A DNA stretch of 64,000 nucleotides from Mangrovimonas cancribranchiae (lineage in GTDB: Bacteria; Bacteroidota; Bacteroidia; Flavobacteriales; Flavobacteriaceae), in NCBI RefSeq assembly GCF_037126245.1, contig NZ_CP136925.1, forward strand, positions 612,001 through 676,000, written 5' to 3'. Below, in pieces: positions 22,083-24,695 of the stretch (the first letter of the stretch is position 1; every line of letters starts with the position of its first letter). Both the position numbers and the translations under genes were made by a program. The notes beneath the pieces are model-generated. The model made no database searches. It saw nothing but the letters and a program-made list of their open reading frames with translations, and was not told where the DNA came from.

Positions 22083-22115
22083 AAAAATAACCAGCCTTTT
22101 TCGGACTGGTTATTT
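22083..22115 (-). terminator. Rho-independent terminator of the blaI-blaR1-like unit
   Basis: A 10-bp stem AAATAACCAG / CTGGTTATTT with two further inner C-G pairs, followed on the minus strand by TTTTTG. It lies just after the stop of the 74-codon reading frame at 22137, so the transcript is expected to run through that frame. Confidence 0.75.
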
Positions 22116-22136: not shown

Positions 22137-22361
22137 TTATTTTGTGGTAATTATAATAACGCCGTTTTTTCCCTTTTCACCATAGCTTTTAGTAGCTTTT
22201 TCTCCTTTAAGAACTGTCATGGATAGAATTTTTTTAGGTGCTATTTTTTCTACTTCTTCTGGAGTAGCTTCTTTGTTGTCTATAATGTAAAGTGGTTTTT
22301 TAGTGTCTCCAATTATTTGAATGTTTTTGTTAGGAGAATCACTTTCGAAGGCCCAAATCAT
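22137..22361 (-). CDS. Displaced C-terminal TonB-plug-like domain of the BlaR1-like protein (or separate 74-aa ORF)
   Basis: 74 residues ending in GEKGKNGVIIITTK, with KKPLYIIDNKEATPEEVEKI before it. This is the small TonB-receptor plug-like domain that usually forms the very C-terminus of flavobacterial M56/BlaR1-like proteins. Here it is in the +1 frame relative to the upstream gene, which stops at 22381. In that frame the coding sense continues upstream of the ATG (QTKDSEEDE) until a TAA at 22403-22401. So a single +1 shift within about 20 nt of A-rich sequence would fuse the two. It may be a real split, a frameshift mutation or a sequence error. Confidence 0.55.
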   Translation of the reverse strand: MIWAFESDSPNKNIQIIGDTKKPLYIIDNKEATPEEVEKIAPKKILSMTVLKGEKATKSYGEKGKNGVIIITTK

Positions 22362-22380
22362 TTCATCTTCTTCACTATCC

Positions 22381-24333
22381 TTAGTTTGATTTGTCTTCTT
22401 TTATAATGATGATTTCTTTTTCTTCATCTGTATTTGGAGAGTCTTCTTCGATAATTTCTATGATTTCAACTTCCTGTTCATCATCATTTTTGTCATTGCT
22501 TTTTAATTCAATAATTTTCTTCTCTTTGTTGGTGAATATAATGTCGTCGGCTTTTTTTACAATGATTTTCTTTTTAATGTTTTTGTCATCATCGGTTTTA
22601 ACAATGAAGACTTTTTTATCATCGTCTTTGGTATTGAATTTTATATTATTGCCGTTTTTGTTTACAACAATTTTCTCTACTAAATTGGCATTTCCAATAG
22701 AAATGTTATCCCCATTGGTGTTGTATTTAATTTGAATGGGTTGTATTGGCGTGTTATTACTTATGCTGTAATTGGCATTGGCGTTATCTGATTTTATATC
22801 AATTTTTATAGCGATAATTTCACCTTTAGAATTTCTTTTAATGCCTTTAAATTTTGCTTTAAGACCGTTTTTTTCAAGTGTTGCTTTTAAGGTGTTAAAA
22901 TCTGCCTCGGTAAAATCTTTGGTAATTATATGAGCTTCAATGTCTGTTGTAGTTTTGCCATTAAATACAATGGCACCTTCTTTTCCTATTTCACCGTATT
23001 TAGCTATGCTTTCTTTTTTACTTAACTGTGTGATTGAGCCTTTTGTTTTTAAGGAGGTGTTGTTTAAGTTTTCCTTTTTATAGGTTTTTCCATTAATCTC
23101 GTAAATAGGGTTTTTTCCATGAGATTCAGGTTTTTTGTTTTCTTTAAATTCTGATGTTGTTCCGTTACCAATAGCTATCGTGCTTTCATTGGGTTTTTCT
23201 GTGGTAACAATAACATTGGTCTTACTTGCGTTTAACGCTACCGAAAATGTTGCAATAGCATTTTTTGGACTTTTTTTACTTATAGTAATGTTTTTTGTAA
23301 AGGTGCTTTCGTCTTTACGTTTTGTCTGTAGTGATATGCGTTCAATAAGGTTGTTTTGGTTTCTTGCAATGTCTGAAAACTTTATGCTTATATTTTTTGA
23401 ACTTAGTTGTTCTTCTATATTATTTAGCTCGCTATTTGTTGTGGCTGAACTAATGACGTGCGATTTTAAATTAGCGTCTTTTTTTATGTAAACTTTTTTA
23501 GTGTTAAAGCTCATTAAAAAGAGAGCTAACGCTGGAAGTATTAAGGTGTATTTCCAAGCTTTTAATTTACTTGACTTTGATTTGTGTAACATAACGATTC
23601 GTTTTTTGATTAATGAATTATAAAAATTATTGGTCATGACCAATTGATGATTGTTTGTTGTGCTTGTTTTTACCAAAAGCATTTGATAGCTTTTTTCGCA
23701 ATTAGAACTGTCTTGCGCTTTTTTATCGGCAATAAACTCTAGGTTTTGCTTAATTTCTTTCTTGTATAGCCAGATAAATGGATTCCACCATAAAAGCACC
23801 GTTGCTATTTGAGCTATTATAACATCTATAGAATGTAATTGTTTAGCATGTACTTTTTCGTGGTTAATTATATGTTTAAGCTCGGTTTTGTTAAACTGTG
23901 TAGGGTTGTAGGCAATCCATCTAAAAAATGAAAAAGGAGGGATGTTTGCAGAAGTTGTAATATAAGTGTAGTTGCCCTTTATGTTTTTATCTGTTTTTGT
24001 TAAAACAGTAAACAGTGCCTTGAATTCCAATATGAGTTTTATGCCTAATGTGGCCAAACCAGTAAAGTATACCCAAGTTAAAATGTTAATAAGTGAAATG
24101 CCTTTCTCTGCTGTTTGTGGTGTAGCTGTATTTGTGATTAAAAAATTGGATGTGTCAATGGGTGTATATTCAATATAAATAGGAATAGATATAAAAGGAG
24201 TAATCACTGCGAATATTAATCCTGTTAATAAGAACCAACGATTGCTTTCAAAAAAAGTCTCTTGCTGAAGGAATATTTTATAGCACAAATAAAATAAGAC
24301 GATTATGGCTGATGATTTTAATAAATATTCCAT
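22381..24333 (-). CDS. M56 family metallopeptidase (BlaR1/MecR1-like sensor), C-terminus apparently frameshifted
   Basis: 650 residues. The N-terminal part has four hydrophobic segments (about 5-23, 34-54, 80-105 and 260-280) and the zinc-protease motif NHEKVHAKQ (HExxH at 158-162). A periplasmic part follows with one plug-like domain (GKNPIYEINGKTYKKENL, then YGEIGKEGAIVFNG) and a long Lys/Asp/Ile-rich tail. BlaR1-like proteins sense an envelope signal and cleave the BlaI repressor; the cue here is unknown. It follows the blaI-type gene by 2 bp. The usual final plug domain is in another frame at 22137-22361. Confidence 0.85.
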   Translation of the reverse strand: MEYLLKSSAIIVLFYLCYKIFLQQETFFESNRWFLLTGLIFAVITPFISIPIYIEYTPIDTSNFLITNTATPQTAEKGISLINILTWVYFTGLATLGIKLILEFKALFTVLTKTDKNIKGNYTYITTSANIPPFSFFRWIAYNPTQFNKTELKHIINHEKVHAKQLHSIDVIIAQIATVLLWWNPFIWLYKKEIKQNLEFIADKKAQDSSNCEKSYQMLLVKTSTTNNHQLVMTNNFYNSLIKKRIVMLHKSKSSKLKAWKYTLILPALALFLMSFNTKKVYIKKDANLKSHVISSATTNSELNNIEEQLSSKNISIKFSDIARNQNNLIERISLQTKRKDESTFTKNITISKKSPKNAIATFSVALNASKTNVIVTTEKPNESTIAIGNGTTSEFKENKKPESHGKNPIYEINGKTYKKENLNNTSLKTKGSITQLSKKESIAKYGEIGKEGAIVFNGKTTTDIEAHIITKDFTEADFNTLKATLEKNGLKAKFKGIKRNSKGEIIAIKIDIKSDNANANYSISNNTPIQPIQIKYNTNGDNISIGNANLVEKIVVNKNGNNIKFNTKDDDKKVFIVKTDDDKNIKKKIIVKKADDIIFTNKEKKIIELKSNDKNDDEQEVEIIEIIEEDSPNTDEEKEIIIIKEDKSN

Positions 24334-24335
24334 GG

Positions 24336-24695
24336 TTATTTTTTGTTTTCAATTAGCTCTATAATTTCTTTAAGCTCTTCAATGCTTATTTTCTCTTCTT
24401 TAGCAAAAAAAGAAACAACATTTTTATACGAGTTGTTAAAGTAGTTCGCAATAGCAGTATTCATAAACCTTTTTTTGTAGGCTTCTTTAGTAATAATAGG
24501 GTAGTATTGGTGAGTTTTTCCATAAGCATGGTAGGATACATAACCTTTATCTTCTAGGTTTCTAATAATAGTAGATAGCGTGTTGTAATGTGGTTTGTCT
24601 TCTTGTATTTCTGCGAGTACATCTTTAACAAAAGCTTTTTCAAGCTTCCATAAAATATGCATAATTTCTTCTTCCTTGTTTGTTAACTTTTGCAT
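24336..24695 (-). CDS. BlaI/MecI/CopY family transcriptional repressor
   Basis: 119 residues. The winged helix is typical: LTNKEEEIMHILWKLEKAFV, then YNTLSTIIRNLEDKGYVSYH as recognition helix and wing, followed by a dimerisation helix region rich in Lys/Glu. These repressors are inactivated by cleavage through a partner M56 protease, encoded 2 bp downstream. Its own promoter contains overlapping dyads matching an autoregulated operator. Regulated genes beyond its own operon cannot be named. Confidence 0.92.
   Translation of the reverse strand: MQKLTNKEEEIMHILWKLEKAFVKDVLAEIQEDKPHYNTLSTIIRNLEDKGYVSYHAYGKTHQYYPIITKEAYKKRFMNTAIANYFNNSYKNVVSFFAKEEKISIEELKEIIELIENKK

Follow-up and report, generated by a model that had tools for sequence, protein, structure and literature searches.

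BlaR1-like proteins of the family PF05569 in Flavobacteriaceae are the closest described relatives of the locus analysed here. They combine an M56 domain containing the motif HEKVH with a plug-like C-terminus read in frame, and a gene for a BlaI-type repressor lies upstream. The HExxH zinc-binding motif is the hallmark of Peptidase M56. Two other systems share one part each with the locus. The BlaR1 beta-lactam sensor (NF000326) is matched weakly over the M56 part, far under the cut-off of its model, and the plug of the SusC/RagA TonB-dependent receptors resembles the C-terminal domain, as judged from a tail-profile match to RagA/SusC and from TIGR04056 and TIGR04057. Unlike in these receptors, the plug of the fused relatives ends M56 proteins of 500-790 aa, without an outer-membrane barrel.

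The stretch under study (64,000 nucleotides, hereafter the window) belongs to the genome of Mangrovimonas cancribranchiae, a single contig of 3,085,202 bp. One of its loci has the parts of the Flavobacteriaceae proteins in the same order, but in the deposited sequence the plug-like domain is found in another frame.

Layout of the locus and its two reading frames

The features of the locus, in window coordinates, are the following.

24336-24695, minus strand: gene of a BlaI/MecI-type repressor (ORF of 119 aa; Pfam Penicillinase_R), directly upstream of the M56 gene
22381-24333, minus strand: gene of an M56 (BlaR1-like) membrane metallopeptidase, first frame (ORF of 650 aa with a TAA stop; Pfam Peptidase_M56; HEKVH)
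22960-23130, minus strand: internal plug-like repeat, in frame within the M56 gene (tail-profile match and alignment)
22384-22400, minus strand: zone of frame change between the two readings (flanking stops; translation in three frames)
22137-22400, minus strand: second open frame, C-terminal TonB-plug-like domain (87 codons; ATG at 22361; alignment and profiles)
22085-22115, minus strand: terminator-like stem-loop 3' of the second frame (terminator search)
22034-19821, minus strand: next gene after the stem, which we take from its sequence to be RelA/SpoT-like

The original prediction placed the stop of the M56 protein at 22381 and a plug-like domain in the +1 frame, from 22361 to the ending GVIIITTK; ORFs and translation agree with it. 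Counted from its ATG, which sits 20 bases past the M56 stop, the tail ORF covers 22137-22361 on the minus strand and encodes 74 aa. Its frame extends upstream without a stop to 22400 (87 codons), where the predicted TAA at 22403-22401 closes it upstream. Three-frame translation shows the first frame blocked past its stop at 22381 and the second one before 22400. Since both are blocked outside the zone, joining them needs a change of frame within some 20 bases, about 22400-22384, as had been proposed. The 74 tail codons stayed open in 43 of 20000 mono-nucleotide shuffles, so that the open frame is beyond chance. The terminator announced after the second frame was also recovered (stem-loop at 22115-22085, minus strand), in a region with 5 terminator-like sites, compared to a shuffled mean of 1.4.

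Three A runs are present in the break zone, AAAA at 22402-22399, AAA at 22392-22390 and AAA at 22387-22385. The AAAA run had been suggested as the site of a base-call error; with four A as the longest run in the zone, it is a weak pointer.

The gene is whole in related genomes

Among named relatives, Mangrovimonas spongiae HN-E26 is the nearest; its orthologue is 92% identical over the M56 part and forms one open frame, plug domain included. In all three other Mangrovimonas genomes examined, M. spongiae among them, the tail lies in one open frame, of 583, 734 and 580 aa, compared to 87 aa in the window's genome; none of the three needs a frame shift. More widely, at least 20 of 249 genomes of the family have a one-frame match to the full-length model, from position 4 or before to its last position, 624, and the window's match to the same model ends at position 537.

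Matches to the tail with E up to 1e-18 numbered 69, in 54 of 120 genomes of the family, some of them in frames of 1000-2200 aa, unlike M56 proteins of usual length. The window's frame is the shortest. Six of the 69 are below 400 aa: the window's (87), G131 (191), G124 (215), G017 (274), G117 (281) and G089 (347). The one from G131, next shortest after the window's, lies at a contig start, with the M56 part of that genome at the edge of another contig, and the one from G117 is no more than 52 bases away from the end of its contig. Genome G017 has an intact M56 gene and, beside it, a second M56-like stretch with three internal stops (G017:C1:52234-53097), perhaps a decaying copy, besides a further plug match, in the 274-aa frame.

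A plug motif outside the M56 frame was found in only one of 38 M56 loci, the window's own; this motif misses some true plug ends (in L011 the plug end is visible in the C-terminus) and matches inside the protein in L026, L035 and L037, while L033 and L004 denote a single locus. The window's record alone shows the split. Homologues sharing the arrangement, which would have spoken for two separate proteins, were not found among the other loci of this set.

Identity of the protein and of its C-terminal domain

The repressor matches Pfam Penicillinase_R with an E value of 5.2e-32 (111.1 bits, for a cut-off of 22.6), and stays below every NCBIfam equivalog or exception cut-off. The M56 protein passes PF05569, Peptidase_M56 (3.6e-15, 56.4 bits for a cut-off of 31), and its HEKVH occupies residues 158-162, with H, E, K and the second H invariant in 7 of 7 aligned sequences. 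The NCBIfam model blaR1_generic (NF000326) gave 25.9 bits, over the M56 part only, and its cut-off of 400 was not reached. A Pfam scan of the M56 protein with E up to 0.05 turned up no sensor domain from a different family. Judged by its Pfam score the predicted protein belongs to the M56 family, outside the BlaR1 equivalog, and the label "BlaR1-like" should not be taken to mean a beta-lactam sensor.

The tail matches NCBIfam TIGR04056 (2e-13) and TIGR04057 (1e-09), both under their curated cut-offs. These matches, together with 82% identity to the C-terminal end of the orthologue from M. spongiae, bear out the call of a TonB-plug-like domain. Pfam PF07715 (Plug) did not reach its cut-off on the 87-codon tail alone (E 0.17, 12.8 bits for a cut-off of 23.9); of the 19 tails aligned, 16 have a match to it with E no higher than 0.01, and the tail from the window is not one of them. 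A profile of the 19 tails run against PDB matched RagA/SusC chains over their plug part, with a best E of 6e-14.

The repeat at 22960-23130 was detected as a match to the tail profile (G000:C1:634960-635130, E 1.5e-5). A similar internal repeat is present in G003; in the alignment, M. spongiae is mostly devoid of this stretch, and a short motif remains.

State of the tail

Compared to M. spongiae, dN/dS is 0.23 in the tail, 0.28 in the middle segment and 0.14 in the M56 part, the values pooling both lineages, so that they cannot date the break. Over the 74 tail codons, 14 synonymous and 15 nonsynonymous changes were counted, the latter fewer than expected under neutrality (p 0.0003). The nonsynonymous rate of the tail does not differ from that of the middle (p 0.56) and is higher than that of the M56 part (p 0.006). 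Sixteen columns of the tail are shared by at least 80% of 18 relatives, and the window keeps 15 of them; the only one lost, S for K, is common to M. spongiae. The tail therefore looks to be under constraint, and dN/dS and column conservation together leave little room for an old break. In the alignment, variability is highest in the linker that precedes the plug domain.

Frame breaks in the assembly

The window's genome is, we infer, that of strain UG2_1. The sequence of Mangrovimonas cancribranchiae UG2_1 comes from PacBio CLR Sequel I reads assembled by Canu 2.2 with defaults, and its methods section names neither polishing nor short reads (PMC11261673). According to passages of a second paper, long-read errors are for the most part short, homopolymer-associated indels; in the MinION data of that paper, insertions often come after A or T with no specific homopolymer involved (PMC12007338). 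The gene-fragmenting indel errors of these passages resemble the present case in that a single frame break affects a conserved gene in a long-read-only assembly; the passages mostly concern other platforms (MinION), unlike the PacBio CLR reads here (PMC12007338).

A census of frame breaks was made in both directions between 1.6 Mb of the window's genome and 1.2 Mb of that of its sister M. spongiae. Five of 622 well-matched M. spongiae ORFs (from 1114 queried) were flagged as broken in the window's genome, and 4 of 655 well-matched ORFs of the window's genome (from 1493 queried) were flagged in the reverse census. Three of the five are clear breaks, in the M56 gene and in the genes of a PLP-type decarboxylase and of a QueE-like protein; for the other two, the query itself seems spurious or extended at its 5' end. 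The breaks in the decarboxylase and the QueE-like protein adjoin A runs of 6 and 7, and the frame sense of the M56-gene break is opposite to theirs. These two genes are outside the window (L078, near G000:C1:793780, and L075, near G000:C1:722794). The four ORFs of the reverse census match M. spongiae in two frames (G001, loci L048, L051 and L055, contig C1). As break rates are similar both ways, the window's assembly does not stand out for broken genes, and the census backs an assembly error at the M56 gene only weakly. An error-prone assembly as a general explanation, with 5/622 in one direction and 4/655 in the other, was likewise given little weight.

Discussion

A split found in one record, in a gene that close relatives carry whole, most probably reflects a slip in sequencing, or else a mutation of recent date, rather than a new mechanism. 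We give a little better than an even chance to a single ordinary gene that only an assembly error has split. The gene would encode an M56 BlaR1-like metallopeptidase with a C-terminal TonB-plug-like domain, beside a BlaI-type repressor, and its frame would be interrupted once in the deposited genome, in the variable, A-rich linker ahead of the plug, by a residual consensus error of a long-read-only assembly (PacBio CLR, Canu). The break would then be absent from the DNA of the cell, which would make one fused protein like its relatives. Such an error is favoured by the single frame of all three congeners, the conservation of the tail, the CLR/Canu origin of the assembly and the two further breaks at A runs. 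It is weakened by a break rate that is low and no higher than in the sister genome, by the lack of any run above four A and by the opposite frame sense. A true frameshift that recently arose in the strain and deprived the M56 protein of its plug domain has a real, if smaller than even, chance. The 650-aa product would keep the membrane protease and the internal plug-like repeat and may partly work, the repeat softening the loss, and the 87-codon tail would be a young remnant. The break zone without a long homopolymer and its position in the most variable part of the protein suit a mutation, as does the similar break rate in M. spongiae (4/655), which indicates that broken genes are not peculiar to the window's assembly. 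The event would have to be very recent, however, for the tail is without visible decay, with 15 of 16 columns kept, 74 codons open and a dN/dS well below 1.

The original prediction had left four options open, and it is on these two, assembly error and frameshift mutation, that the choice now bears; a conserved split and a conserved slippage are contradicted by the relatives. Programmed +1 frameshifting, or transcription slippage, joining the frames in part of the products would fit a conserved tail followed by a terminator and an A-rich zone. As a conserved feature it is ruled out by the single frame in 3/3 other Mangrovimonas genomes, which have no use for a shift site and conserve none. The A runs are also short, and a +1 slip requires the P-site tRNA to re-pair, which the codon before the first stop does not provide for; we hold such a shift to be very improbable. 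We think equally little of a genuine two-gene arrangement, in which re-initiation at the ATG at 22361, close to the stop at 22381, would yield a 74-aa plug-like protein. As a conserved organisation this one is ruled out by the single-frame relatives, by the 1/38 motif count, which is the window's own locus, and by the 69 tail frames, among which the window's is the only one below 190 aa and that of 191 aa lies at a contig start. The free tail would moreover be deprived of the membrane anchor that, going by the usual topology, should precede it in the fused protein. Nothing conserved stands behind either programmed shifting or the two-gene layout, and both are unlikely. A further conceivable case is that the letters are right and the break is a deliberate switch, with the A-rich linker undergoing slippage or reversible indels to give the protease with or without its plug; its probability is slight, and if true, protease and plug partner would be uncoupled.

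Neither an assembly error nor a real loss adds a new kind of system. If the break is an assembly error, the record of a type strain is affected, and protein catalogues drawn from it will list a 650-aa M56 protein and a 74-aa plug protein that are both false. A real break would represent a strain-level loss of a domain of these flavobacterial M56 proteins.
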